Source of the DNA: Pegea sp. RAD2-039
Lineage: Eukaryota; Chordata; Thaliacea; Salpida; Salpidae
Assembly: GCA_034620365.1 (NCBI GenBank)
Contig: JAQGEQ010000363.1
Span: 248,001-312,000, forward strand
DNA length: 64,000 nt
Direction of reading: 5' to 3'
Shown: positions 17,027-45,839 of the stretch, in pieces
Numbering within the stretch: the first letter of the stretch is position 1
Layout: each line of letters starts with the position of its first letter
The notes under the pieces: generated by a model
Told to the model about the DNA's origin: nothing
The model's input: the letters and a program-made list of their open reading frames with translations, nothing else
Database searches by the model: none
Made by a program: the position numbers and the translations under genes

Positions 17027-17837
17027 TTTAACTTAAAGTGACTTAATTTGATTTTGAAAAGTTTAAGTTTGTTTTGCCACAAAAACCAACAATATTTAGT
17101 AAATAATGATAAGAGTTATAAAACCTATACAAATTGAAAAAATAACTTGTTTTAACTGAAAAAAGTATTAAATTTATTTGCCAAATTTCACTTTGCATAA
17201 ATGAAAACTAAATATTTGATTTAAATCAATAACAAAAAAGTATTTTGATACATTGCATATACTTATAAGCATGACCAAAATTATAAAATATTATTTCTTT
17301 TATTTCTCTTGAAAAATAGCTATGTATTATTATTTGGAATTTTTTGTAAGATTTATTTAACAACAGCTTTTAAAATTCACTTTTGTTGATACAAATATTT
17401 CAATAACTAAAAAATAAATAAAGTAAAATTTGATACTATTTTTAAAAGTATCATTTTGTTGAAATATGGAAGAGGTCACAAAGTTTTAATTAAAAGTTAT
17501 AATTATTTATTCTCCAACTTAAATATTATTTGTTTATAAAAAAAAACGAATAATAAGTTTTTGATAAAGAGTAAAATTTAAAAACTTGTTATTAAAGGAG
17601 GATAATTTTTTGATAAACGTCAAACAGTTTATTCCAACAACAACAACAAATTAATTAAAGTAAATTATAAACAAATAGAATATCAAAAAGTTACTCATCG
17701 TGTTTGTTTTTGTTGTAAAAATATTGTTCAAGTATTTCGATTATACAAAAATGTACCATACTAAGTTGGATTTAAAGATCTACCTTTTATTAAAATAAAT
17801 TCGATTTTTTGTCAAAATAAATAAATGGTTATTTAGG
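17027..17837. other. AT-rich intergenic stretch, no gene seen
   Basis: Sequence 5' of JKAMP with no recognised gene. It presumably contains the JKAMP promoter, but no specific element could be supported. Confidence 0.45.
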
Positions 17838-18180
17838 GGTGCCTGAAGAAAGCACCTCTCGCTAACACACATTCTCACAAATAACATGTATTAAGTCAAA
17901 AATATAGAAAGAAAAAAAGTAATACATGGCATTTCGGTAGTCCTTAAAGCATATAATAGTGAGCATTTACATAGAATGTTAATAATATAAAAAAAAGGCA
18001 AAATTCACAATCTAAAAATGGCAATGTTGGCAATGTTATAACGGCTCAACTTCTGCTTAAACAACGCGAGTGATTCTAACATGACAATGTCTGATGGCAG
18101 CTGGTTTCATGTATTAATTGTGCGGTATAAGAAAAAAATCGCTCTGATTAACGTACTAGGTGATATGGGCTTATTAAGTT
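17838..18180 (-). mobile_element. Decayed LINE 3' end (RT C-terminus plus 3' tail)
   Basis: Reading the minus strand from about 18175 to 18010, one frame gives FFLYRTINT, a stop, then NQLPSDIVMLESLALFKQKL. This is the C-terminal signature of many non-LTR reverse transcriptases (FF-R-WN-LP-V-FK-L), with the usual Trp turned into TGA. Downstream on the same strand (17893-17838) is a tail containing GTGAGAATGTGTGTTAGCG and a GGTGC/GCACC hairpin. The tail is also found at 32757 and, with a tRNA-like head, at 35291. The piece is 5'-truncated and mutated. The clade cannot be told from this fragment. Confidence 0.65.
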
Positions 18181-19876
18181 TGTTTCAACTTGTAAATAAA
18201 TACTGGAAATAGACAAGGAAGTGAAAAAAAAAACTGACTCTGTTTGGATACTTCTATATCCTTGAAACATTTAATTTAGGCAAAATTTTTTTATGATTAT
18301 CCAAAAACTTTTATCCAAAAATAAAATTGTAAAACGCTTTTAGTAAGATGTACTAGTTATCTTTTTTTATTTTGCACTAATATGCCTTACTTCGTCTGAT
18401 TCTTATTTAAAAGAAAGATGAAATTAATTGAAGAAATATAAAAATAATTTGCGTATCAATGAAAGAAAAGTTTATTATTTGAAATCAGCAGATGACATAA
18501 AAAGATACAAGAAATCAATTTATAGAGAGGATAAAAGATCATAAGCCTATTATTGCAAAGCGCAAAAAACTCAGTAATCTAACACAATAACTAAAAAATT
18601 TAAGGTTGTTAAAAAAAAGCATTATCCTGAATAATCTATCCCCTAGTTCGTTATCATACGTTTTGAACGATTATAAGTAGAAGTACGCAATCAAATTATT
18701 TGATTACTAACTTTGTTATTTGGGTTGTTGAAGCAATTAAAATTTAGTAATATTGAAGTACTTATCTTTAGTAGAAATTGAATATTTATTTTAATCGTCT
18801 GAAGTGCTCAATTTTCGCTAATAATTTGGAAAATCAATTTAAACTGCGAAACGACTTTGGCAAAGACAAATTTTTATTTGAACATATGTTAACAAACAAT
18901 CATTAAAATTAGCTTTTAAATTGTTAAACAAACTTTGTTAAGATTAACATATTACCGGTTTATTTTTTACGTATGGCTGCAAATAGTAAATAATAAATTA
19001 ATGTAAGTGAACTCTACTTAAATGAGTTTTGTAAACTATTTTCCATAAATTTGAAAGTAATGTTTTTTTCATCAACTTTTATTGACTTCGTAATTTGGTA
19101 ACTTTTTCAAAACATTTTTGTTTAATCATTTAAGCAAAATGATTTTAAATTTGATAAAAGTTTTTGTTGGTGTAAGTTTTCACAAAATCTTATGGTTTTT
19201 TGTTGATTTTATTTATCTTTATGTACTTAAGGAAAAAGTATGAAACGGTTAAAAGTATGAAACTTTTTAAATATTATATATATATTATAATTGAAAAAAA
19301 TGTGAAGCAATGACTTGTTTATATCAATACTAATCAGATGAGATTTATTTTATACTTTTAATGCTACCTTTGTCTTTTTTGTTTGATGTTTTCACACTTC
19401 CAAAACTTTGTTTGTTTTAAATACAGTAAAGTTAAATATTTTTTAAACTTATATATCATATATGATTAGCTGTTATGCCTACCTAGTCAATTTTATTAGT
19501 TAAATGAAAGTTATAGTTACATATAAATAAATAAAGTCATACTTTTGTTTAAAAAATTTCTTAAAATTTGAACATTTTAAAGTTATAACTTGTGACACTA
19601 AAACGACTTTCTTTTCTTTTAATCATCAAGTATATTTAAGGTATCATTTTAAAATTTATTCTATTAGGATTAAAGTAACATCTTGTTTTCTACAGATCAT
19701 GAAATGTAGAATCTTAAGATTTTAAACCCAATGAAATTACCCCTTGAACTTTTTTATTGATTATTATTTTTTAAATTTAGTTTTTATGAAATATTTTTGC
19801 TTAGTTAAATTCAACTAATTTTGTTTTTAGGTGACTTTAATATAACTTACTTAATACCTGACTTTAGATATTAGCT
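18181..19876. other. Intergenic stretch upstream of the FKBP6-like gene
   Basis: No protein-coding signal was seen. A pyrimidine-rich acceptor (TTTGTTTTTAG) at about 19820-19830 suggests a non-coding 5' UTR exon of the FKBP6-like gene just before its ATG at 19877. Confidence 0.4.
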
Positions 19877-21112
19877 ATGACTGACATTTCTAAAAAAGAT
19901 GTTGAAAATATTCTTTCTGTAGCTAACTCTACTGTTAGATTAGAAGATGATGTCAGTATAAAAAGCCTACAGACTTCAGGCTTTCATTTTTCAGTTGAAA
20001 CTGAACATTCAGAAAAAGAGAATGAATTTGAAGATTCAAATTATCCTTTAAATCCTTTGATTGATGACAGCACTGAAATATCAGAAAGTGATGAAGGCTT
20101 ATTTGCAAAAATTGCAAAGAAAATGGTTAAAATTACGGAAGATAGTGGAGTAAAAAAGCTAATCAAGCGTGAAGGTACAGGTGCAGCAGTATTTCAGAAT
20201 GCTGAAATAACTGTTCATTACAGTGCTTATTTTGAAGACCAATTTGAACCTTTTGATTCTACTTATTTGCGAAAAAGTCCATTAAAAGCTATAGTAGGCT
20301 CTTGTAGTTTAATAGAGGGTTTTGATATAGCTGTACTTTCCATGAAAAAAGGAGAAATCTCTCAGTTTATTATTCAGCCTGATTATGCTTATGGTAAGCT
20401 TGGGTGCCCTCCGCGTATATTACCAAATGCTGAAATATTTTATGAAATTGAAATACTGTCAGTTAGTAAAAATGCTGAAGAAAATTTTGGTACAATTAAA
20501 GATTTACCATTATCAAAGGTAAAGTTTAAATCTAAATTTAACAACTATTGAAGTTTAGTTATATTTAAGATATATGTATTTCAGTTATTATCAAAGTTAG
20601 TTTAGTTTACTAAATTACCAAGATATTTTAAAATTGTATTTTTTTATTCGGGTATTTTTATTCAGGTTAAGGAGATAATGACGACGTTGAGAGAAGAGGG
20701 AAATGATTTCTTTAAAGAAGATAGAATTAAGGAGGCCTCGGATAAGTTTAATAATATAATCAAAATGGTTGAATCTGAAACAATCAAAGAAGATGAAGAT
20801 TTTGTTGAAATTCTTTGCAAAACTTATTGCAATCTTTCATTGTGCTACATGAAACTTGGATACTTTGGCAAAGCAATTTCCAATTCAAAAAAAGTGCTGG
20901 TACGAAGACCAGATCATTTGAAAGCCCTTTATTTGCTGGGCAAATGTTTTCGATGTACTAATCGGCTTGTAGAGGGCAAAGAGGTTTTGATGCGAGCTCA
21001 TGATTTATCTCCTAATTCAGAAGATATCTCTAAAGAGATTCATCTTCTTGTAGAACAAGAGATTAAAACTGCTCATGATGAAAAAGCGATGTGTAAAAAA
21101 ATGTTTAGTTAA
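19877..21112 (+). CDS. FKBP6: FKBP6-like immunophilin with TPR domain
   Basis: Two coding exons, 19877-20518 and 20666-21112, join in phase to about 362 residues. An acidic N-terminal stretch is followed by an FKBP domain (about 95-205) and a TPR region (about 218-340; NDFFKEDRIKEASDKF, YCNLSLCYMKLGYFGKAI, HLKALYLLGKCFR). The segment AYGKLGCPPRILPN closely matches the FKBP6 signature and favours FKBP6 over FKBP4/5. The FKBP pocket is degenerate: the position of the FKBP12 active-site Trp is Phe (IEGFDIAV), consistent with the catalytically weak FKBP6 family. FKBP6 and its fly relative Shutdown are HSP90 co-chaperones in the piRNA pathway of germ cells, so a germline role is inferred. Human FKBP6 is 327 residues; the extra length here is at the N-terminus. 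Confidence 0.87.
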
Positions 21113-22472
21113 GAGTTTTTATGCACCTTTTATATCGTTGACATATTTTTACCACATACCCATGATATATTTGAATTGTGAATAAAAATCTCTATTCATT
21201 TGTCTGCTTTTATCTCTGTTACATTACAGAACCAGAATAGCTTGATTCATTCATTCAGCCTTATCTGATCACGCCGAAACTTGTCCAATAATATTTTTCA
21301 AGAATTCGTGACGTCATTTTTGTAGATTATTACATTACTGACTAAGAAACCAATTAGGGTCATTTAAAACTTTTAGATCTTGGCAACTAATCAAAAGTAC
21401 AAAAACGAAATCTTGACTCCTTTGAGATATAACTGACTTTTTATTAAAGTTTTATTGTTTTACGGAAAACTTCCAAAGTTGATTGTTTATAAAATTAAAC
21501 CTTTTTCTCGTTCTACAAGAAAGAAGAACACAGAAATATTATTTTAACATTTCACTACTGATCACTGGTATTTGTAGAGAATGTATAGGCACGGGGTATG
21601 CATTTCTATAAACTAAAACTCAACTAAATAAGTAAGCACTAGATGATTCTCAAAATGGAAAGGTTTTAAGATGTTATTGAAACCGACGTATTTTATCTAT
21701 AAAATGGTTTTCAAGTAACCCAATTGCCATTAAGGAACTCTAGATTACCGAAATCTTTCGAGCGCATTTGTAAATCCCCTAATATGATAAAAAAGCTTTG
21801 AATGAAGTTAGTATTGTAATGCTTTCAGACTATATAAAGACTGAAGATAGTTAAGTGTTCCATTATAGAAAAATTAAATAATTGTTCTCTCTCTTTTTTT
21901 GCTTATAATTTATAATTGCTTGTTTTTTCTAACTTAATAAATTAAATATTTATAATATTATAAAACAAGTTATTTACAATGTTTGACCTTAAAATAATTC
22001 TTTATCTAAAGAGTAAAATGTTATTTATAATTATTACATCAAATTGCCTTCATATATCATATTATACTTATAATATGAAAATTACTTATTATTAAATGTT
22101 AATTAATCATAACCTATCATAGTTATCTTTCTTCATATTTTCTTATAGTAAAATATTTATTACTAAAAACTCAATATCTTTAGTTGCTTACAAAATCATT
22201 TGACTTTTTAATCTTAATATTTTTCACAACTAACTGATATTATATGCTTCTTTTTTATTATATTCTAGTTTACTCATTAGAATTAATTTTTTTATGTTGA
22301 CATTAAGTCATTAAAAAAATGATTTCAAATAATTAGTTTGTATTTTTTGTTTTATAAATTTAAATATTTTCTAACATAATAATTTAACTTTTATTCATTT
22401 TAAGTTATAGGTAATTGAATGACTTCTTTATAAGTTAATCTTAACTAAAAATAAACCATAGAATTTTCAAGA
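21113..22472. other. Intergenic stretch, no gene seen
   Basis: Sequence between the FKBP6-like and CCDC43 genes, both on the plus strand. A single TGACGTCA lies at 21309-21316. No further gene or RNA was recognised. Confidence 0.45.
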
Positions 22473-24277
22473 ATGGAAGAGCCTGCTGTTCCTTCAGAGT
22501 TTTCTGATTGGTTATCTAAGAAACTCATCTCACTTGACATTGATGACGATGTTTATGGAAGTTATATCATCAGTATTTTAACTGATGATGAAGATAAAGA
22601 TTTTATTCCTGAACTTTTAAAAGAGACCTTAGGATCTATTCTGGTAAAGTTTATTTTTTATTCTATCTGACATATTTTAGTTTATAACAAAAATAAAATA
22701 GTTTTAAAGCATTTATTTTTTCTACAATTTTAAATTAGATAATATATTTTGGTGAATATTAGAGATATTTTTTTCTTAATGAAATTATTATTATAAAAGT
22801 TAAAGTATTTTCTTTGAATTTGTTATTTTAGTTTCAAGGAGTTTCTACTTTTTAAAAACAATAAGTTAAAAAATAATCAAAACAAAATTCTTTTTAAATT
22901 GTCAATATGATTTTTTTGGTTTGATTTTTCAACCAAGTTGTATAACATTTCATAAAATTGTTGATATTTTTCTTAAATCTTCAAGTGATTTTAAATATTC
23001 ATAATTAGTTTCTATCCTGAAACAATTTACTGCTAAACTCATTGAATACAGCTTCAGAAATTTAATATTAAAATAGGATTAGTTAGTTTTGTTGTTTTGA
23101 TACTTTAAAAATCAAATTGATTTTAATAAAAGGATGAAAATGTGGATGGTTTATGTGATGAAATCCTTAAGAGTTGGAATGAGTCTTGTAATAACAAAAT
23201 TGAAGAAGAATTAACTACAATTGGTGAGCTGTTAAACATATAATTTAGTAGATAAACAGGTTTCAACTATCTATACTTAGAAGCAAACTATTTGTAATTT
23301 GTTTTTATGTCATTATCCATAATTTCTTTTTTATTTCAGAAAAAAATAACAATTTGAATGAGATGTTAGCGACTCATTTGACTCTAGTATCAAAGCAAGA
23401 TGGTTTTAAAAAAACAGGTTTTTGCATCTGAATTTTTATCTAATAATTGGCACTATAGAAAATCAAAAATAATGAAGGAATAAATCTTGCTAATCAGTTT
23501 TACTTGACTGAATACAACGTAAAATGTATTTTCAATGATTTAAAATTTTCTACATCATCATCAATCTTTGAAAAAAACTTTTGTTTATTTCTTTGAACAG
23601 AGAAACCTATCTGCCAGGAACAAGAGAGTTTGAAGAAGTCTGTGATGGCTCTTTACAATTCCATGCAGTCAACTGAACTATATCTTTTCTTTATTTTTAT
23701 TTAATTAAATTTTATTTAATTTGAAATATTTTTTTTCTTAACAACTCGTCACAATTGATGGCAAACTAGATTTAGGAAATGGTAATCAAATCCTTGATCC
23801 TGCTCTTCTTCTTTCTAATCAGATGGAATTCTTTCAGATCGTGATGACGATGATTCAGCTCTTTTCTGCAATACAAATGCTCAATCAGTTTCAAACGCTG
23901 AAAAAGAAGATCGCGTGAAGCGAAAGGAGGAATCAATCCGTAAAAAAGAGAAAGATAAGGTTTGGATGTTTTAAGAGATTCTAACTTCTATTTACCATTT
24001 GAATAATTCCTTCTTTTTTGTTTTTTTTTTCACAAAAGTTTTATTTTAGACAAAGTGTTTATTTTTTAAGTTCCATTTCGTTCTACTTCTAATTCGAATA
24101 AATATTTTATCAATTTGTAGTTAGTATTTAAAAGATGTTTTATTAAACACCAAAGTATTTCTTTAATTTTTTCACAAATTGTATTTTTAGATGGATTTGG
24201 AATTACAAAAGCTGAAAAAAGTTGAAAGAAAAGAGAAAGAAAAAAAGCGAACTCAAAAACGTGACCGGGTGAAATAA
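22473..24277 (+). CDS. CCDC43: CCDC43 family protein
   Basis: Seven exons: 22473-22643, 23133-23223, 23340-23417, 23601-23679, 23753-23781, 23823-23959 and 24191-24277 give 223 residues, essentially the length of human CCDC43. Conserved features: N-terminal WLSKKL with VYGSYIISIL (human WLDGRL and VYGAYILGIL); the central DDDDSALFCNTNA, like the human LLFRNTN block; and a highly charged C-terminal helix ending KKRTQKRDRVK. Function is poorly known; it is a predicted coiled-coil protein. Exon 4 has no usable GT donor, and the frame closes only if the intron 23680-23752 is an AT-AC intron. Exon 6 has two in-frame acceptors 15 bases apart (exon start 23823 or 23838), so two isoforms differing by five residues are possible. 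Confidence 0.88.
23680..23752 (+). other. Probable U12-type (AT-AC) spliceosomal intron in CCDC43
   Basis: The intron begins ATATCTTTT, one mismatch from the U12 donor consensus ATATCCTTT. It contains TTTCTTAAC, one mismatch from the U12 branch site TTCCTTAAC. It ends CAC about 11 bases after the branch adenosine. Splicing here joins CT to A and keeps the CCDC43 frame open (STELIDGKLDLGND). No GT-AG alternative gave an open, full-length product. Confidence 0.75.
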
Positions 24278-27200
24278 AATCCGATCTTAAATGATATTCG
24301 ATCTTTGATGATGGCTCTTTCATAGGGAACCATTTGTTTTTTTTCTGACTCCTAATTTAAAATATTTGTTAAAGATTTGAACGACTTTGAGTTGATTTTA
24401 CAAAGATTGCATCTTAAAACTTCTTAGGTTGTAATTTAATTTTTAACAAGTATTTCTAATAAATAATAGATTGAATTCACTTTCTATCTGATCAATTTCT
24501 TGTTTGTATCAAGTTTCTTTAAATCAAATGTTTCTTTAATCTTCTTTCTAAAAATTAATTTGAATGTAGTTCAAATATTTAAAGTATATCATCCTGTTTC
24601 CTCATAAGTCTTTTAAGCAACAAACCTTATTATGAAATAGTTCAGAATTTTTTTGAGGTTTTTTATAAACTTTTCAAAAGATTTTATGTTCACCATTAAA
24701 TATGAGTGAATCTCTAACAATCTAAAATTAAACTTTTAAACATAAAAGTTAAACTTTGTATCTATAAACGAAATTGTTAAACTCAAGATAATTACATTTT
24801 TTAGCTTTGTTAACGATTTTCAATAAATCATTTTTGATAGAAAAATTTGTATAATTTCTTTTGGCTTTATGCTCAAATAGTTTGAACACTTTTTATTTGA
24901 CAAATTTATTGATTGTGGTTTCTGTAAATCACCGTATGTTAGTAGAAACTCAGTTATAGATCTAATAAATTTGAGTAATTTTCTTAAATGTTGAACAGAA
25001 TTTTAGGTTAAAATAACAAAATGAGTCTTATGCTTCTAACTTAATTTTAACTTTTTTGTTTATTTTATGTAAATAATTTTTAATATTCAGCTGCTCTTTA
25101 AAATATAAAATGTTATCTACTTTTGTCGAGATATTTATAATGAAGTTTAAAATTTGTTGCTGTAATTATTTCATTAAGATGTCCAACAAGAAGTAATACG
25201 CTCATACAACTGAATTATGAGCCAGAGAGCTGTAGATACATAATAATTGTTTTTAAAAATTTTTCGGTAAAAATATAAAAAAAAATTTTAATTTTACATT
25301 AATGTTTGAAAAAAGCGTAATTTGAAAATTGTGCAGTAACAAATACTCAAAGTACAATTTGATTTGTCAAATGAATTAAACCTTGAAAGCTAGAACTAGA
25401 TTATTTATAAAAAATATATTATAAAAAACTTATAAAAAGTTGAACTCAGAAATCTTATGTTTTATGAAGTTTAATTTCTTGTTTACAATATTTACAGTAA
25501 AACATATTTTAGTAGCAGATTGATATTAACAAATCGAAGCTACGGTGTTACTTTTGTTGAGAATTAACTTTTAAACTAATATGAGAAATCACTATAAAAA
25601 GATATTTTGTCAAGTTTAATTGAAAATGGCTTAAAGGCTTTAAAATACAATGGAAAATTCAGGTTTATTCAAGAGGAACTCTATTTTAAAAACCTATTTT
25701 TCTTAATTGAAAGATGTTCAAATCTTTAGTGCTTTAATTAACCTTTAATTTAGGAATTTAATCAAATACATACTTGTTGTTTCAATTACAAAATTTACTT
25801 TCTCAATTCAGATTGTATTCTAATTATTTCTTTAAAGCTAACTACTGCCACATTTGAATAAATTACAATATTTTCCCAAGTTCCCCACATCGTTTTATAT
25901 TGAGCAGGCAGTATAATATTGAAATTTGATATTTTAATTTATTAAGATGCTGTTTTGATTTTCATAAAAATTTAGTTGAAGCTTAGAGGAAGTTAATTAA
26001 TTTATCAATTGATTGAGTAAATAAAAATCCATTTTGAAAGATTTTGAAACAATTAAATATTCAGTCAAAACCTATTTCTCAATTTTTAAAAACAATTTGT
26101 ATTTCTTATCAGCTCAAAATCATTACTTAATCATGAATTTAACTTTGATCTACATAGATTTTTTTAATATTCTAACATTTTTGCTATATAATTTCTATTA
26201 ATTTAACTTATTTATTGTTTAGAAATCATTAAACATTAATTTGCAAATTATAAAGTTTTTGAAACATAAAGGAAGTTATTGCATTTCAAAAACAAATACC
26301 AATAAAATGTGGATAGCTTCACAGCAGAAGTACCTTGTAAAAAAAAAGTAATAAAAATTTCGAAGTTAATCAGTTATTGGTTCAAATCATTCAGTAATTT
26401 AACAACAGTCTGTTATAACAAATGTTTTGTTTATTTTAATAGACTTAGTCAGATCTATAAGTGTAAGTGATAGTTATTTATTATATTATTGATTTCAAAA
26501 TAATATTTACTAATATAATTTACTATCGTTTTTTCTAATTTTCTATTTTATTTTTTCACATCCAAGCAGCAACCAATTTAACCTTAAGGTACTTGTTACA
26601 AATTTCAAACAGCTGTTCTATTTATTTGCAAAACATTTGCATTACGTGATGTTATAAATTGTGCATGGGATCCACACTTGATTATTTCATTAGAAAGCTT
26701 TACGGTGCATTTGCTAATTGTTTTGTTTACTACTTCAAGTACACAAAAACATTTCCAGATGTTCGCTATAGAAAATATTTTTGTAAGCTTATTTTGTGAT
26801 TGTAGTTATATTTAAATAAATATATGGTTTTTCAGTTGACATTTGTTTTTAAAAATTTTGATAAGTTTTCAAACATTAATTAAATTTTGTAATTAATTAA
26901 TTATGATTTAGGTTTACTTTCCAAACGTTTTCATTTTTACGTATAAAACAATTATTTAAATAAACGTTAATAATTTTAAACTATTTTTATCTAATTTTGA
27001 TTGCTGATGAAGCTATTTATAGTATTATTTTGAATTTAATCTTTTCTATCCAGTATTTAAAGTTTAAATAGTCAGTGTTTGAAATCATAAAATAATTAAA
27101 GTGGTTATTAGAAACATTTAATCTGTTTAAACTTGACTTAAAAGTTTGATCTTTCATTTTTACTTCTATAAAGAGCTTTTATATTTCATCAAAATATTAT

Positions 27201-28146
27201 GGAACTTATTGTGAACCTGGTATCAATAGTTTTATCTTTTTTATCAGATCTTTATAGATATGCTTATCTTAAAGTATGAACTCTTGTTATCTGTAACTAT
27301 ATAATTTAATTGTTTTGAAATTCACCATCAGTATGGCACAGTGTTTGATATATAATTTCTTTGAATATAATTTAAGTCATAATATCAATTCAGTGCCTAC
27401 TATATGCTTAGCCAATGACACTATTTACAATTAAACTTTATTTGTTCAAAATAAAAGACTTACAATGATGAAAGAAGATTTATAAATTGATTCGTTATCT
27501 TATAGTAAAGTTTTCTTAATGTCAGTGTAGGGTTTTTCTCTATTTTTTGAAAGCTTATTCTTTTTGGCTCTTATTTTTCTACCTATTATGTTTATAGTTA
27601 TAATTTGAGAACTTTTTAATTTAATAAATGTAAATGTATTTTGATTATTTTGAAAAATGTTTGCCTCATCTTAGTTTAAACTCATTTTTATGAAAACATA
27701 CATTTATATTTACTTTTATAAGTAAAGATATCATTGCTATATGAGTACATTAACTACAAATTCATTATATTTCAATTAAATTTATAAAGATTTAGATAGT
27801 GAAATCAAATTATTGGGGTTATTATTTGCTAAATAGTGAAATTAATTCAGAATAATTTTTTAACATGAGCATTTAAGATATATTTAGCAATACTTTCTAA
27901 CATTTATGTGTCATAAAATAAATTCATTTTTAGAATTGTAGTAATCAGCAAAACTTGATACCATATCCTAAAATTAGGTTTCAAAGTTTTTTTCTTTTAT
28001 ATTCCAATTATAAAATTACTAATTTTAAACTTGATTATTTAATTTTATAAAAGCTTACATCTATCAATTTATGTCTAGTTATGTTTCAACTAAAATTAAA
28101 ATCTCTTGCAGCGTTTATGTTATAAAGTTTACTTAATTTTCCAAAC
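24278..28146. other. 3.9-kb AT-rich intergenic desert
   Basis: No coding exon, RNA gene or transposon was recognised on either strand. Short runs of A or T and TTAATTAA-type words are common. Confidence 0.45.
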
Positions 28147-31100
28147 ATGAGACTGTTTTTTCTGCTTGCCAAAGAAAGCAAAGCATATTTTTCTGTTAGT
28201 AAAAAGAAAGCTTTAAATAATTCGAAATTATTGGGTTTAATTGATGAATACTCTCAATACTCTCCAAGCCCTTTGTCATTAAGGCAGTTCTTAGATTTTG
28301 GTAAGTAATTATTTGAATAAAAATTCAAAAAATTATTCTAAAATAAAACCATTTGTAATTTCAAATAAGTTTTCAAGATAGTTTTGTTAATGAGATACTA
28401 CAATTTCCTAGAAAGTTTTTGATAGAATATTTTTTCAAATTTCTTGTATTTAAATCAGCTCAAAAAAGTGGAGATGAAAAAGCTTCTTATATTTTCCTTA
28501 GACAAGAAGTTCCAACCAGATTAGCAAATATGGTTAAAGTAGGTTTAGAGATTTTGATTTGCTTAAATAAGTGAAGTAACAAACGATCACACTTTTAACC
28601 TAAATTGCATTTATTCTAGGAGATGAATCGTCTGCCTGATTCGTTGTTAATGATGCCGTCAACAAAGTTAGTGACTTCTTGGTACGTGAAGTCTTTTGAA
28701 GAAGTTATTTCATTCCATAAACAGAAACCAGACTTCAAAAATCTGTCAAAGTATGTTGAAGGTCTTTCTGATCAAAAGTAATAAAATATTTCGTTCGAAT
28801 TTTAGGTTTATAGAAACTATGGATGGTGTTATAAGAAGACATCAAAATGTAGTTGAAACCATGGCACATGGTATTATTGAATGGAGAGAAGCATCATCTA
28901 AACATTCTGTTGATAAATATCGAGAAAAAGTTCAATATTTTCTTGATCGTTTTTATACAAGTAGAATTGGAATCCGTATCCTCATCAACCAACACAGTAA
29001 CTTCTCAATTTATTCTAAATCTTCACCAACATTAATAATTCAAGAAAAAAAATAAAACGATCTTTTAATGCTTTCAATCAATTTTATCGGCTATTTTGAT
29101 CATATATGACGTCAATACTCCTTCTGCTTTCGTCATTCATTATTTTTAGTGAAGATTATTTAATTAAGTCACCAAAAGCAAGCTGTAAACAATAATATTT
29201 CTGTAAAATTGAAATTCCATTTTTTCTTTCTTCATCACAACTTGAGCAACTTTTTTTTAGCAATGTTGTTTAGTGAGGGAAGAAAGACTGGTGTTTCCAC
29301 TTATGGAGCAATTGATCCTAACTGTAATGTAGCCGAAGTCCTAGAAGATTCATATCAAACTGCTAAATACTTATGTGAACAATATTATCTTTCAGCACCA
29401 GAAGTAAATATCAAAGTTCAAAATTGTGAGTTTATTTCTATCAAATATTAGTTTAGTGTTTTTCTATTTGCTTGTGATAAATATTTTTGATAAAAGCAAC
29501 AGTGAAAAAGCCTTCTGCTTAAAAATTCATCATTTTTTAATGAGATCGATTCCAATTTTGTAGAAATTATTTTGTTTTGATTATGTTTGCTACGAGTCAC
29601 TTTTGTGTTTCAAACTTTTTGCAAATTTCTATTTCAATTAACTTTTTGTAAATATTTCTCCTAATCTGTGATATTTGAGGCTGATCAAAGGTCGGTCGTA
29701 AAGATTGCTTACTGATAAGCTCACAAAAACCTCCTTTTTCATTTATTTGTTTTTTAAACTTTAAACTATTCTTGTTGATGAGAACTTCGCGATAATATAA
29801 GAACCGTTCCGCCTGACTAATTTCTGTTTAGACCGATCTAAACTCTGCTTGATAGTCACCTAACTTGCCACGTGTTCATATTCAGCAATATTTTGGTTGA
29901 AATTGCAACAACAAGTTTTTGAGAAACCAAAGAAAACAAATAGTACATACCCTAAAAATCAACCAATCAGAACGCTTTGTTTAAAAATCTGCTTAACTGT
30001 ATTTCTACATCAGGTTTTTTATCGGCAAATACAAAAAAAAGGTTTTTTATTTCTATTTTTAATTTCTATGCAAAGTTTTTGATACTAAAAACGTTGTTGC
30101 TAAACAATTTTCCGCCAAATTTCAGCCAATTAAATTGCAGCTTTTCATTTTAAATTAAATTTCAAATATCTATTTCAAGATTAAAGATTAACGTTTAGCA
30201 GGTAATCAGCTGATCCACTAATACTTTCGATGTTGGATTAAACACGTCTTGCATGAGAAGATTGCAACTAATTTTGAATTTCTACCAAATAGTTAATCGA
30301 TAAATTTCAAATTAAAAAGTTCTGAAAATTTGGTGAATTTCAAATTGTCATAAAAATCCAGAAATTCAATTCAATTGATTTTTGAACTTCCAATGAAAAT
30401 CTCAACGATTCAAATAAATCTTCATCTTCCACCAGAAAACTTATTCTTGAGTCTTATATTAATTAAAGAGTTTATATCAGTGTTTAAGATACTAACTTGA
30501 ACTGATGTTGTGTCTCACAAGACCTCACTCGAATCTCTTCTATTTGCGCTGATTGGATGCAAGCAGTTGATGACTTTTCGTCCCTTACTTTCCTCTGCAA
30601 ATCACCTTTTTAAGGTCATTCGACCTTTTCCTCTTTTCTAGTTGATCAATCAATTTATAAAAGCAATTTAAGTAGGGGGGTTGGTTGTACATCTGTATCT
30701 ACTGCTTCTGTGCCAGCTCGATTCACTAAATATTTGTTATTTTCCTTCTTCAGTCTCTAAACTTCAACTTCGATATTTTTTATTCAGCTGTCGACGACAC
30801 TAATGATAAAGCTGTCGACATCATCTATGTCCCATCTCATCTTCATCATATCTGTTTTGAGTTATTCAAGGTATTCAACATCCTCAAATCTTATAATTAC
30901 TCTTCAAATCAATCTCTTCCCAGAACGCGATGAGAGCTACTATGGAAAGCGTCCCTGATGACGTCATCAAGATCCCTGAGATCAATGTGACAGTGACGAA
31001 AGGCAAGACTGATTGCTGCATCCGCATCTCAGATCACGGACACGGAGCTTCCAGGAAAGTATCTAGGAAATGGTTTGAATACTTGTACAGTACAGCACCT

Positions 31101-31541
31101 CGACCTCCAAGAAGCGAAGATGCGCGAGTCACACCTCTGGTTAGTTCTTCTCTTCATCACTCGACAAATTTGTAAAATATTTGATTGTGTATAGGCTGGT
31201 TACGGGTATGGGCTACCTCTGTCCAGGCTATATGCCCGTTATCTAGGCGGTGACCTTTTTTTGCAGTCTATGGAAGGTTATGGGACCGATGCATTTATTT
31301 ACTTAAAAGTGAATTGAATTTTTTTATTTGAATCTTGATTAAAAAAAGTGAAATTTTAAGAAATCAAATCCATTTACAGACTTACTCAAAAGAAGCTGTT
31401 GAAACTGTTCCTGTATATAATGCTGCTACTACAGAAAAATACAATCGACCAGCATTAGGAGACGATTGGGTTATACCAGCTGGTAGTAGTAGGTCTAGGG
31501 AAGACAAATCCTTTGTAGAATCTTGGAAGAGAAAATCTTAA
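28147..31541 (+). CDS. PDK: Pyruvate dehydrogenase kinase (PDK), mitochondrial
   Basis: Mitochondrial kinase that phosphorylates and inactivates the pyruvate dehydrogenase E1-alpha subunit. Nine exons (28147-28300, 28459-28538, 28620-28750, 28806-28996, 29261-29425, 30788-30870, 30924-31139, 31195-31308, 31380-31541) join in phase to 431 residues. Visible landmarks: [11 protein letters not shown] at the start of the regulatory helical domain; [12 protein letters not shown] box ELFKNAMRAT; G1 box DHGHG where DxGGG-like is usual; YSTAP; G2 box [30 protein letters not shown]. Near the C-terminus is DDW followed by VIPA, the Asp-Trp motif of PDKs that is used to separate them from BCKDK. The N-terminus is basic and hydrophobic, as expected for import. 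The intron at 29426-30787 is the only long one, and no gene was seen in it. The vertebrate paralogue (PDK1 to 4) cannot be assigned. Confidence 0.93.
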
Positions 31542-34001
31542 GTGATTATTTTCATTTCTTTTATTCGATGTACATTAATTAATTGTTGTTGTGTTCTGAC
31601 TTCTTTTCTCTGATATCAGCTGCTGATTATTAAGTAGGTCACGTGATAACTTCAAATCATCTTTAACAATTTCTTTTTAATTTTCGAACATTTTTTATTT
31701 GACTATTCGTTCTGTATACTTCAGCTACTTGTTTTGATGTCAATTGTTCCTCCCAAAACTTCTCAATTAGTTTTAGTTTGAAAATCTGAATCTGAAAAGA
31801 AGTCTTTAAAGATCTTCAAGCTATATCACAATTGTTTATTCTTTTTTTTTCTGTTATTGAATTATTCTCAATTTTTATTTTCAAGCAAATATATTTTTAA
31901 CAAAAATCAATTTATTTAATTTATTGGCAGCTGTAAATTAATGATTTAAATTCTTAAAAAATCTTGAAAAGTACATTGGTCTTAAATTTATCGCAAAACA
32001 TTTATTTGAAGTCTAAGATCTATTATTTTTAGCTAAAAAGACCCAAGACTGCTATTATTAAGCACTAATGACCAGTTGTGAAATTTTTACGATTATTTTA
32101 TATACCTTTTCGGCTGACTCGTTATTAAAATGTAAAATAAAAACAGCTAAGTGTTGAAGACTAAGCTAAAGATACTGCTGGTGATTTTTAAAGTTTTCAA
32201 AATTAGAAAGTAAAAAAGCTTTTGGCATCAACTACAAGTAACTGAAATTTAATAACTCAAAACCTAATAATACATTAGTTGTATAAAGCTAACATAAAAT
32301 CAGTATGTTTTTAGGAAGCTGTTTGAATTGAATGTTCTCTAAGAATATTTACTGAAGTGTTGAAAAAATGCAATTTTAATATTTAAAAGTAAAACAAAAG
32401 TTTAGTTTTTAATGACATCTTAATATTTATTTGATGTAAAACATGATTTTGGGCAAATAAAACTTGTTCCAATAATTATGCTATTCACAAAAATCAATTT
32501 AACCAAAATTACTTTATCAAAATTATTTTTAACTAATAAATTATGTCCTAAATTACTAACTAAAGTTTATAAACAACAATTAAATGTTAAATTAAGATGA
32601 ACCTAAAATATTTATTAATACATAATTACTCGAAAGACATATTGCAGTAAACTGACATTTAGTTTTATGAAAACGTTTTTAGTTAAACTAAAAGATTTAT
32701 AAAAATATTTTAAATTATTGATGATTTTTTAAATGTCTTTAAAACAATTCAATCACATTATTTGTGAGAATGTGTGTTAGCGGGAGGTGCTTTCTTCAGG
32801 CACCCTCCTTCGCATTTATTGTAATAAATCAATTAAAGAAATCTAAATAAAGAAACATTGTATTGTCTGTGGGTTTTACATTTGTTATCAAACTAGTTAT
32901 AAAATTAACGGTGATTTGTTTTACACATAAGAGAGATTACGACGAATATTTTTTAACATTTAAAAATGTTTAGTGTCTGGTGTTGAGATGACTCGTAATA
33001 GAAACATTTTTAGCTGATACAGAGCTGAATTATTGAACTAATGACCCTGCGTTATTTGTTGTTTAAAGGAATATATCAATTATTATGAAAATATCAAGTA
33101 TATTTCTAGATCTATTTAATCTAATGTAGGTTACTAAAAGATTTAAGATGGTACTTGATAAAATAACCTGTTGATGCAATTACTGTATAAATGCAGTAAA
33201 TTCAAAACATCCATTTACAGTACTTATATTTAAGCATATATTTCTAGTACTTATTAATTTAAAAAATTTATTGCGACATAATTCATCGGTAGAAAATACT
33301 TCTAAAACTTTAAAATTAAAGTTTTGTTTAAAATATTATTATGCTCCGTTAGTAGAGCTTTCATGAATTTGATTTAAAGTATTAGTTTAAATAATTCTAA
33401 TTCTTTACGAGGCTCAAAGTTTAAACGGAAAACCATTTAAGTAGATTTATGATACTGACAATTCTTACGTTTAGTGATCGAAAGTGCTTAGGACTAGTCT
33501 TGGCTTAGCCTAGGTTTTTTTTCTAATATTTTCACTTTCTTTAAAAATATTCGTGTAAGATTGACAAATTTAAATGCAAATTTAGATGTGAAACAAATTT
33601 GTCAAAACTTTGAAATTGAAGAAGGTTAAATATATGGATATGGCTCCTAGATCTTCAATTTAAGTAATTTCAGTTCTAATTTTTAAAAAGACCAGTACAT
33701 CTTAAAGATTGTATTTTGTGATTCTATTTCAATAACAAAACTTTATATTTATTTTTTTTTATCTACAAATATACATTTTAAGTCATGTTATATACATCTT
33801 AACATTAAAATAACAAACTCTTTATAAAATAAGGATGAGTTGTCAGTTTACATCTATCATATATGAAATAGCAGCTTAAAAAGTTTTTATTTGATAAATG
33901 AATTAAAAAGTTGTTACTTAATATATTTGTAAATTTTAATTTAGGAAACTTCGGTAAAAACTTAATATAGTTTTAATAAAAGCAAGTATATAGATAAAAT
34001 T
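31542..34001. other. Intergenic stretch with one LINE/SINE tail copy
   Basis: PDK and the MEA1-like gene converge on this region. Apart from the repeat tail at 32757-32820, nothing was recognised. A TCACGTGA palindrome lies near 31639. Confidence 0.45.
32757..32820 (+). repeat. LINE-type 3' tail copy (5'-truncated)
   Basis: Contains GTGAGAATGTGTGTTAGCG, then GGAGGTGCTTTCTTCAGG and CACCCTCCTTCGCA. It matches the tail of the LINE fragment at 17893-17838 (minus) over about 47 bases, including the TTATTT just before it. That makes it closer to the LINE copy than to the SINE copy. No tRNA-like head is visible upstream, so it is probably a severely 5'-truncated LINE insertion. Confidence 0.65.
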
Positions 34002-34580
34002 TCATGATTTTTGAACTTTTTCCACAATTTCATTCCATTTTGTGTCAGACAAGTCCTTCGCCCAATGTGGAATTGAAGACTCTTTTAAAGTGATTTTCTG
34101 CATTGTACTCAAAATCAAATCTGCAACAACAAATAGTTAAAATTAATTGATATTTAATCAATTTCTACTTGGATCTAATTTCAACTCTCTTTTGGTTGAA
34201 TCTTTTCCATCATCTTCAACAGAGTCTTCTTCTGCATCCTCCTCTTCAGAGCTGATCATAAGATCAAGTTCACTATCATTAGTAGGAAGAGGTTGATAAC
34301 TGGAAAAAGAATCATTTTAACCATTTGATTTATCTCACTGAAATTTAAATTTTTTATAAAATAATGAAATATTTATTAACTTTTAACAAAAAGACATTTT
34401 TCAAAAAAATGATAATTTATGCTAGTTGCTATAAAAATGTTTATTTATTTTTAACCTATTTATTTCTATTTCATCTTCTGATTCTTCTTCACTACTTGGT
34501 AAATTTGAAGCAATTTTTTCAACAGTTTTTTCAGTAGGTTGTTTAGGTTCAGGCGTATGGCTTGTAGAAACTACCATCAT
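34002..34580 (-). CDS. MEA1: MEA1-like protein (male-enhanced antigen 1 family)
   Basis: Three exons (34456-34580, 34169-34299, 34002-34120) join in phase to 124 residues. The protein is acidic and mostly disordered (SSEEESEDE, SSEEEDAEEDSVEDD) with two conserved spots: SYQPLP, matching the family YSYQPL, and a C-terminal block IPHWAKDLSDTKWNEIVEKV, matching the MEA1 PAWAREISDAQWEDVV. Between them LDPNLILSTMQ fits the family MDP-x-VELVKRTM. The order and spacing of these blocks is that of MEA1, which is longer in human (about 185 residues). The start at 34580 follows an in-frame TAA in the upstream sequence. Function in this organism is unknown; MEA1 was described from mammalian testis. Confidence 0.8.
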
Positions 34581-35290
34581 TGATTTCAAAGCTTAGAAAT
34601 AACAATTTGGAATAAAAATTAGAATTAGAGATTTAACTTTTATATAAAGCAAGCTCATATTTAAAAAATATAGAAAATTAAAATAATCACAAAAACAAAA
34701 GATTTTTAAAATTTGGTTTATTATAAAATTAAAAAAAGAATAGTTTACTTAAATTAGTCGTTATCGGTCTTTTTTAAATTTAATTACATTTTTCAAAAAC
34801 TGATATTACAACTAAATCCAATCAAACCACAATATATATTTTATTTATGTAAAGTGTCAACAGCTTTTTTAGTATCCCCTATTCTGAATTATGCAACAAT
34901 TTGGCTTTTTACATATTAATACTGACTTTGCACAAATTTATAAAACTAACTTTTTTACATAATTATTATAAAGATTATTAAGTAAGAATATGTTGTAAAT
35001 TTTTATTTTCTATTCTTGATTATGAAACTTATTTTTAATTTTTGTAGCTATAATTTATATTGTAACATAAATTCAAAAAGTTGTTTTTAGAACTTATTTG
35101 TGTTGAATTTTTGTACAATGTAAGGCTTTGCCCTAACAATAGCTACAAAAACACCAATGTTATTTTTATGTAAATATCAAAATCTAATATAGCTCGTTAG
35201 TCGAAATGTTCTTAAATAGGACAGATGAAAATAGATATACAAATAATGTAGTATTAACTTATTAAATACTTTTACAAACATATTTATTAA
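34581..35290. other. Intergenic stretch upstream of the MEA1-like gene
   Basis: AT-rich sequence between the MEA1-like gene and the SINE. No coding or RNA signal was recognised. Confidence 0.4.
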
Positions 35291-35462
35291 GTCCTGCTTG
35301 GTGGCGAAGAGGTTACTACACCTACCATATAGCTAGGAAGTACTGGGTTCGACCCCAGGTGGAGAAATATTTATAAACTCCTTAGAAAAAAACCATAAAA
35401 AACTCGTGAGAATGTGTGTTAGCGAGAAGTGCTCCCTTTAGGCACCCTCCTTCGCATGTATA
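35291..35462 (+). mobile_element. tRNA-derived SINE
   Basis: The head resembles a tRNA gene. It has an A box TGGCGAAGAGG at 35302-35312 and a perfect B box GGTTCGACCCC at 35346-35356, the internal RNA polymerase III promoter. The cloverleaf is not a functional tRNA. After a short linker comes a tail (from about 35404) with GTGAGAATGTGTGTTAGCG, a GTGC/GCAC hairpin and CACCCTCCTTCGCA. The tail is shared with the LINE fragment at 17.8 kb and the copy at 32.8 kb. Target-site duplications could not be defined by eye. Confidence 0.8.
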
Positions 35463-36301: not shown

Positions 36302-36373
36302 TGCCACCAGTGAGGTTTGAACTCACGACCCCTGGTTTACGAGACCAGTGCTCTACCACTGAGCTATAGCGGC
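36302..36373 (-). tRNA. tRNA-Thr (anticodon CGU)
   Basis: A complete 72-base cloverleaf. The 7-bp acceptor stem pairs GCCGCTA with TGGTGGC (three G-U-type pairs). The D arm is GCTC/GAGC with loop AGTGGTA. The anticodon arm is CTGGT/ACCAG with loop CTCGTAA, anticodon CGT at 36341-36339. The variable loop has five bases. The T arm is GTGAG/CTCAC with loop TTCAAAC. The discriminator is A. There is no intron and CCA is not encoded, as expected for a eukaryotic nuclear tRNA gene. The internal A and B boxes look intact. Confidence 0.95.
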
Positions 36374-43931: not shown

Positions 43932-45839
43932 TCAAAGATCAAATCTTCTTTCAATCTCATCAAATATCATTTGAGAGATGGCTAGTGATGATGTAGCAGC
44001 TGGTGATGGAGCATTCCTCACATGAAGTGTCCTCTTCCCAATCAAACTCTCTCCTGAGCTGAATATGAAATCATCTACCAAGTTGCCGTCCATATCAAGG
44101 GCCTGGGCTCGTACACCAGCAGGACCACTTTAATAAAAATGTTTAATGTCAATATGGTTCTTTTATGACCCACCGTTCGACGTCATGTTTCGTCAGTTGT
44201 GGAATAAATTTCTTTAATTTGCTAATTTGAGCGTTTTTGTTGATCATATGATAAAATTCAGTTACACCCGCTTGTAAGTTGTTCAAGACCAGTTTTCTTA
44301 ACCCTCTGAAATTGCAATTGAAGTTAAATAGAAATTAATTTGCTGATTGCAGTAAAGAAACCGAAAAAAAATAGCTTCAGTAAAATCTTTCGTACTGAAG
44401 TCGAAAAACTTATAACCCTCTCTCTTGAAAGCAAGAACAGCATTTGGGCCAAGCCAAACGCTTCCATCCATACGAGGAGTGTAATGAACCCCAAGAAAAG
44501 GAAATCTTGGGTCAGGAACCTATAAAGATTTGTGGATTTTATATCAAAATCATCACAAAGTAGATTTGTTACCGGGTAGATGTTGCCTTTTACAAGAAAT
44601 TCTTTGCCAGGTTTTAAGATTAAATAATCGCCTCTAAATGGAACGATCTTAGGAAGAGGATCACATCCACACTTCTGAGCTAAGCGATCTGAATAAAGAC
44701 CTCCACAGACAACTACATATTTTGAGTTAAGAGTTTTCTGAAATTGAAAAAAATTACTTTAAAATAAATAGAAATTCAGAAGTTTTACCCCAGATTTAGT
44801 TGTGATTGAAACTGGATAAGATGAATCTAAAAAAAGATGTAGTTTGATAAATTTCAGAAAATATTTCAACTTTTCTTGTGTACCTGAGCTTTCATTAAAG
44901 TCATCAACTTCAAAGTTGGTATGAATGGCTCCTCCCAATTTTAAGAATTCATCTCCATAAGATCTTGCTACAACAGCATAATCCACAATTCCTGTTAAAG
45001 GTGAATGAATTGCTTTCAAACCCTACAAATAAAACAATCTTAAATAATAATCTAAAAAATATTTGATGGTTATTCTGATCATCACTTACTTGGCAAAATG
45101 GTTCAATTTCTTTTATTTTATCTTTTTCAATCATTTCAACAGTACATCCATTTTCAAGAGCTCTTTCATAAAGTCCTTCTAATCTTTCTACTTCATTTTC
45201 TTCAACAGCAACAATTAACTTAAAAATAATTATAAATAAAAATGATTAATATTAAGTTGATTTGAAAAAAACAAAATTGTTAGCTTCAAAGAACTAACTT
45301 TTCCACATTTCTTGTAAGGGATGTTTTTCTGATCACAATATTCATACATCAACTTCAATCCTTTAACACAGAGCTTAGCTTTTAAGGAGCCTGGTTTATA
45401 GTAGATACCAGCATGGATCACACCACTATTATTCCCACTTTGATGTTTACCTTCACATATTTCCTTTCAACATCAGAACAAAGATCAATAAAATAAATAC
45501 TTAACACATCTTCTTTCTCGACCAGAGCATAAGATAGATGAGGTTTTCTCATGATCAGCTCCCGAGCTGTAGCAAGACCCACAATACCTCCACCAACAAT
45601 GGTGACATCATAACTATTCTCATTTCTATATAAGCAACAATACTTATTAATTTAATTATTTGATAAACAAATTATCATAATAAAATCTAGTAGTTTAATT
45701 AGAAGAATCTTTTACTATTAGAAGATATTACTTACTTTAAACAAGAATTATTTAATGAAAAAAAACGACATGAATTGTAAGATGTTGGATATTTAATTAT
45801 TTTAGGAAAACAATTCCTTAATAATGATATTGAAAACAT
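43932..45839 (-). CDS. L2HGDH: L-2-hydroxyglutarate dehydrogenase, mitochondrial
   Basis: FAD enzyme oxidising L-2-hydroxyglutarate to 2-oxoglutarate in mitochondria, a metabolite-repair reaction. Ten exons (45736-45839, 45508-45625, 45299-45463, 45090-45218, 44884-45022, 44789-44826, 44573-44737, 44362-44519, 44174-44305, 43932-44127) join in phase to 447 residues. The N-terminus is Arg/Lys/Ser-rich and lacks acids, as an import signal should. Then come the FAD Rossmann motif [111 protein letters not shown] and [13 protein letters not shown]. Similarity to human L2HGDH is high throughout, and the length is only slightly shorter. It is head to head with FOXRED1. Confidence 0.96.

Follow-up and report, generated by a model that had tools for sequence, protein, structure and literature searches.

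A common 3' tail in a CR1/L2-like LINE and a tRNA-headed SINE: a candidate stringent-type pair in the salp Pegea

A stretch of 64,000 nucleotides from the salp Pegea sp. RAD2-039 (contig JAQGEQ010000363.1, positions 248,001 to 312,000; hereafter the window) contains a piece of a long interspersed element (LINE) and a short interspersed element (SINE) that end in one and the same 3' tail. We consider it very probable that the window holds old copies of a CR1/L2-like LINE and of its parasite, a tRNA-derived SINE, and that the two constitute a stringent-type pair. As far as the literature searched shows, the pair is new and of an already known kind. In the LINEs of this type, the protein of open reading frame 2 (ORF2) binds the stem-loop of its own 3' tail via a region between the endonuclease and the reverse transcriptase (RT), and SINEs bearing the tail of a partner LINE use the ORF2 protein of that LINE (PMC4176376, PMC3747384).

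The tail in the window and across the genome

The tail is about 60 nt long and opens with the 19-mer GTGAGAATGTGTGTTAGCG, which has three exact copies in the window, at 17860-17878 on the minus strand and at 32764-32782 and 35406-35424 on the plus strand. These remain the only matches when up to three mismatches are allowed, and 100 shuffles yielded none. The three copies belong to a LINE fragment, a headless copy and a SINE, which had been claimed to share a tail by an earlier note made from the letters of the window alone, and which indeed do so.

The LINE fragment (17837..18178, minus strand) is an older, 5'-truncated copy consisting of the end of ORF2 with one internal stop, the 3' untranslated region (3'UTR) and most of the tail (17838..17878), the last recognised by the exact 19-mer and by a predicted fold with a GGTGC/GCACC hairpin. 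Translation in frame 3 gives LNKPISPSTLIRAIFFLYRTINT*NQLPSDIVMLESLALFKQKLSRYNIANIAIFRL*, which matches the LINE C-terminus elsewhere (copy L025 and a complete copy on contig C1), so the fragment was rightly read as the C-terminus of a non-long-terminal-repeat (non-LTR) RT followed by the tail; because of its internal stop, the copy is decayed. Comparison with 39 other genome copies (those scored among 2,904 candidates) revealed 86-90% identity from 18178 down to ~17837, and all 39 alignments begin at the same position, the truncation point of the window copy. After GCACC, the CTCCTTCGC stretch that usually follows is missing from the piece.

The headless copy, previously placed at 32757-32820, is present on the plus strand with somewhat different limits: by its exact 19-mer, the tail proper begins at 32764, and it is complete to 32826, with a TAATAAAT end. 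The letters TTATTT ahead of it (32757-32763) are also those ahead of the tail in older LINE copies. The ~7 nt before the tail may thus still be LINE 3'UTR, and the start of this copy probably lies a few bases ahead of the tail.

The SINE (35291-35462, plus strand) is a member of a 41-row genome match set, for which 40 of 1,586 candidates were scored. It is composed of a tRNA-related head in an older form of 77 nt (35291..35367), with the A box region TGGCGAAGAGG and the B box GGTTCGACCCC, a body (35368..35405) delimited by alignment of copies L001-L008, and the tail common to the LINE (35406..35462), defined by the exact 19-mer, the alignment and the fold. Its hairpin reads AGTGC/GCACC; the GGTGC/GCACC hairpin of the earlier description therefore applies to the LINE piece of the window but not to its SINE.

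Searching the whole genome (105.7 Mb, 387 contigs) with the exact 19-mer revealed 1,224 matches (598 forward, 626 reverse); allowing up to two mismatches raised the number to 2,937. The reversed pattern had none in either search. For the first 100 exact tails in match order, from contigs C1, C2 and C3 (loci L029-L058 and L082-L151), the 300 nt ahead of the tail were classified by anchored extension and BLAST. LINE 3' sequence precedes 70 of them, over at least 46 nt in 66 cases and beyond an indel or inversion in four (L043, L058, L082, L129), and a SINE body precedes two (L116 and, with its head worn, L144). In line with the check proposed in the earlier note, one class extends into a full RT and another begins with the tRNA head. 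Past 45 nt upstream, no element could be recognised for the other 28 tails, which are preceded by 45 nt of LINE sequence at most; among them, L056 and L113 have identical flanks and represent one duplicated insertion, and L138 contains 46 bp matching a LINE copy in reverse orientation. Upstream of the headless tails, no further type of head recurs in this sample, which requires the exact 19-mer.

The 5' limits of the sampled tail loci fall at 0-10, 10-20, 20-30, 30-40 and 40-60 nt in 16, 6, 7, 2 and 6 cases, respectively, the first bin including the two SINEs. The idea that truncation strongly favours the precise start of the tail was considered and rejected, as the 5' limit declines gradually and the sample requires the whole 19-mer. 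We regard as very unlikely the idea that the ~60-nt tail is itself a mobile unit, part of the lone tails stemming from short tail RNAs which the LINE protein protects and copies; if true, such a unit would be a client of the LINE still more reduced than the SINE. The exact 19-mer was not found in the literature searched. Likewise, the first 22 letters of the tail have no exact match in the searched genome and viral contig collections, from which records near the host may be absent, and nothing was found for the LINE RT piece in the searched viral contig collection. In the host genome itself, searches for COX1 and, run with no positive control, for Chitin_bind_4 gave no match.

The LINE and its lineages

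Two overlapping pieces together give a complete LINE copy of ~4.4 kb (roughly C1:2926087-2930449), which comprises ORF1, an overlapping ORF2, a 3'UTR of ~85 nt, the tail and (AATA)n. The 334-codon open frame of ORF1 contains a Cys4-His-Cys3 pattern of the PHD type, which was equalled by 0 of 20,000 shuffles. It scores 15.8 bits against Pfam PHDvar_NSD, below the cut-off of 27, and the PHD-like region shows weak matches in the PDB to MLL-type fingers, with E values of 1.9 to 4.6. Judged by eye, this N-terminal finger is followed by coiled-coil-like and RNA-binding-like stretches. ORF2 has 1,024 codons and encodes an apurinic/apyrimidinic (AP)-type endonuclease and an RT, with Pfam matches to PF14529 (3.2e-11), PF03372 (6.3e-6) and PF00078 (5.7e-39), each above the cut-off; no match to RNase H was found in ORF2 at E up to 0.1. 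In the PDB, the RT matches R2 proteins and L1 ORF2p (best E 8.2e-17) and then more distant RTs. In its domain content the element resembles CR1/L2 non-LTR retrotransposons.

The tail is present in all 11 young LINE copies that were read at both ends, with one mismatch within the 19-mer in the young copy C10. It follows intact RT frames, which excludes that the tail never follows an RT reading frame. Over the shared part, the 5' regions of young copies are 97.5-100% alike in most pairs; the 5' ends vary by truncation, and there are two kinds of 5'UTR. Two young copies (L066 and L061) begin with ATTCTATTTGAATA, a word that recurs 29 nt on, and the 5'UTR of other young copies is of a different kind. 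Of the 19 LINE copies fetched, many remain alike far upstream of the truncation point of the window copy, and L025 and L027 have 1,571 bp in common that encode RT. A search with the RT piece gave 127 scored places, about 40 of which, by manual count, have an open frame of at least 1,000 codons and no stop within the match. By eye, the 3' flank of the copy L063 (C249:719750-720150) is the reverse complement of the 3'UTR of an older copy, so L063 appears to have inserted into an older LINE.

Several LINE lineages share the tail. Across 128 pairs between young and older lineages, identity reaches 80% at the coding end and 91% in the 56-nt tail, compared to 71% in the aligned columns of the 3'UTR, where 39% of the columns are gaps. 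Since the first 19 letters of the tail were used for selection, the free part of 31 letters after them carries more weight; in an ungapped comparison of 440 pairs, its median agreement is 84% and the mean 77%. In 19 unselected tails, agreement with the young tail amounts to 97% over the first 19 letters and 87% over the rest. Judged from these alignments, the tail is better conserved between LINE lineages than the 3'UTR.

The SINE and the origin of its head

The SINE head has 359 genome matches at up to three mismatches, and the control has none. We sampled 40 loci with an exact head, in listing order save one that was skipped, of which 39 were readable (L187 is clipped). The tail is full in 34 of these copies, including L156 with a short loop gap, partial in three (L171, L188, L189) and missing in two (L176, L179). 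Together with its presence in every young LINE copy read at both ends, this upholds the earlier suggestion of a LINE/SINE pair. Compared with their own consensus, 32 copies (L155, L183 and six incomplete copies left out) have a median divergence of 1.2%, and four of them are identical. Given that near-identical copies exist of both the LINE and the SINE, both probably moved recently.

The older form of the SINE, to which the window copy belongs, has the 77-nt head, without the 10-nt insertion seen in young copies. The SINE body repeats the opening letters of the tail (ACTCCTGAGAA twice), and by eye the stretch between the two repeats is lost in L178 and L191. A single clear target-site duplication, of 19 bp, was seen in one SINE copy (L175).

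Read directly against the consensus of a type 2 RNA polymerase III promoter, the head contains an A box (TGGCGAAGCGG) and the B box described above. Neither ARAGORN, which called no tRNA in four of four SINE loci, nor the Rfam tRNA model, which called no head in six of six, recognised it; at L001 the sole hit of the latter was the adjacent tRNA-Thr gene. Of the 30 distinct heads, most adopt a single rod fold. Anchored on the T loop, the 77-nt head nevertheless accommodates the D, anticodon and T stems at tRNA spacing with 12 of 14 pairs, which 18 of 5,000 shuffles equal, and its anticodon loop CUUCUAG carries the anticodon UCU. With the acceptor stem added, the tRNA fit becomes unremarkable (600 of 5,000 shuffles do as well), and the three tRNA stems on their own are much less stable than the rod (-5.0 versus -32.8 kcal/mol).

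A search pattern built from a tRNA-Arg sequence had no exact match in the genome; with two mismatches it matched 113 places, compared to one for the control. The 100 listed places comprise nine that read as tRNA-Arg genes and 91 that read as old SINE heads in the same gap-free frame, and the three of the nine that were fetched were all called tRNA-Arg(TCT). The head matches tRNA-Arg(TCT) without gaps across 37 nt, a match reached by 2 of 2,000 shuffles, whereas 1,256 of 2,000 do as well against tRNA-Thr. Thus the earlier description of a tRNA-headed SINE is borne out by the layout of the head and by this match, even though neither program called it. The head is of tRNA origin, most likely from tRNA-Arg(UCU); the assignment to Arg is likely and not proven, because the comparison covered three genes (tRNA-Arg, tRNA-Thr and vault RNA).

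An origin from vault RNA, prompted by the rod fold, was rejected in favour of tRNA-Arg, as the match to the genome's vault RNA is short and gapped and was equalled by 49 of 2,000 shuffles. The genome has two near-identical vault RNA genes (Rfam RF00006; L192 and L193) on the plus strand at C11:2055675-2055776 and 2058310-2058411, ~2.6 kb apart, which score 46 bits against the Rfam cut-off of 34. Four tRNA-Arg gene strings lie within ~56 kb at C208:2781-59013, and two further ones on C200. A true tRNA-Thr(CGT) gene is located in the window at 36302-36373 on the minus strand, ~0.8 kb away from the SINE.

Tail structure, mechanism and relation to known pairs

In single LINE tails the predicted fold is a hairpin in which GGUGCU/GGCACC forms the apical stem, one A is bulged, and GAG/CUC pairs beneath. 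The z scores of the tail fold are -2.6 and -2.2 for two LINE readings and -1.0 for a SINE reading, the best fold of which pairs GUGCU with GGCAC in its apical stem. Across 66 distinct LINE and headless tails, 95.5% of the cells of the hairpin are paired, compared to 44-62% when it is slid by 1-3 columns. Double changes occur in seven cells at three pairs, and shuffles match the five measures of the hairpin 5, 9, 1, 15 and 4 times in 500. Five of the seven cells lie at one pair and change G-C to A-U, with nine G-U rows as likely intermediates and five rows unpaired; they may trace to one event in one subfamily. The compensatory changes that the earlier note had proposed to look for are therefore present, but they are modest, and a rival fold remains.

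Several observations weigh against the pair as we propose it, or against the hairpin through which it would work. RNAalifold on the 66 tails prefers another fold (GUGAG/CUUCRC, GUGUU/GGCAC, GAGAG/CUCUC), which has no double changes. It is possible, though less likely than not, that the tail functions by means of this fold, or by recognition of its primary sequence, in place of the GGTGC/GCACC hairpin. In the 19 unselected LINE tails the other fold pairs 95.4% and the hairpin 93.4%, the slid versions of the hairpin also reach three pairs or six cells with double changes, and the near-constancy of the first 19 letters in those tails would suit a readout of primary sequence. By contrast, the double changes are found at the pairs of the hairpin, pairing drops to 44-62% of cells when it is slid, and on 23 distinct SINE rows, one of them misread from a LINE tail, the hairpin pairs 91.3% compared to 87.8% for the other fold. 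With modest support from covariation, we consider the bulged hairpin likely but not settled.

Further points on the same side concern the SINE. By eye, the tails of the young SINE and the young LINE disagree at four of 54 places, one of which unpairs a pair of the hairpin stem in 22 of the 23 distinct SINE rows, and SINE 3' ends are often A-rich and not (AATA)n. These differences, together with the spread of the tail over several LINE lineages, could mean that a different lineage with a closer tail moves the SINE, or lately moved it, and that the young LINE is a relative of the true partner. We think this unlikely: the SINE tail otherwise matches the young LINE tail letter for letter, including the apical loop CTCTTTA, and no other element type recurs upstream of the 100 sampled tails, a sample that requires the exact 19-mer, which is absent from most young SINE copies. 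In addition, long target-site duplications are nearly absent. Words of at least six letters occur in 13 of 36 SINEs versus 22% of mismatched flank pairs, with no excess, and words of at least nine in two of 36, one being a run of A, versus 2.2% of mismatched flanks; duplications of 3-5 bp are indistinguishable from A-rich ends in the SINE copies. This scarcity is compatible with the 3-5 bp target-site duplications of CR1 and L2 (PMC4245944). Finally, the placement of the RT in the CR1/L2 group is tentative. As for a coincidence of nested insertions, with SINE heads beside LINE tails, the frequency of lone tails (28 of 100) speaks for it, but head, body and full tail are joined alike in 34 of 39 SINE copies with different flanks, which refutes it.

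We propose that the stringent-type pair would work as follows. The SINE would be transcribed by RNA polymerase III, and the ORF2 protein of the LINE would bind the tail RNA, probably at the bulged hairpin. Target-primed reverse transcription would then begin at the 3' end of the tail RNA, for LINE and SINE RNA alike, and the RT would often halt early, leaving truncated and tail-only copies.

The architecture resembles that of eel UnaL2 with UnaSINE1 and UnaSINE2 and of zebrafish ZfL2-1 and ZfL2-2, in which one tail with a stem-loop ends both the LINE and the tRNA-headed SINE, with short 3'-end repeats and a single bulged stem nucleotide (PMC4176376, PMC3747384), reported as needed in UnaL2 (PMC4176376); in the Pegea pair the bulged hairpin is the likely counterpart. 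Compared to UnaL2, the letters of the tail differ, the end repeat is (AATA)n instead of TGTAA, and recognition of the tail is inferred here (PMC4176376, PMC3747384). The PHD-like N-terminal finger, with endonuclease and RT in ORF2, recalls those CR1/L2 LINEs whose ORF1, which comes in several types in that group, carries a PHD finger, although in the Pegea element the PHD match falls below the Pfam cut-off (PMC4120745). Similar to tRNA-derived SINEs with CR1-clade or L2 tails, the SINE consists of a tRNA head, a short body and a LINE tail, but it differs from the tabulated ones examined in a head that likely comes from tRNA-Arg(UCU); the sole protostome entry among these is Gecko of Aedes, which goes with I-clade LINEs (PMC3747384).

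Both partners are young. The genome that harbours them is compact, at 106 Mb, and contains about 40 open ORF2 copies and some 360 SINE heads. The presence of several LINE lineages with drifted 3'UTRs but a kept tail provides a natural test of the reading of tail RNA by the LINE protein, and the pair should also be useful for asking how far a SINE tail may diverge from that of its partner and still be copied.

Elsewhere in the window, an open frame at 19868-21112 (plus strand) resembles what we take to be an FKBP/TPR protein, and another at 44324-44758 (minus strand) presumably corresponds to an exon of L-2-hydroxyglutarate dehydrogenase.

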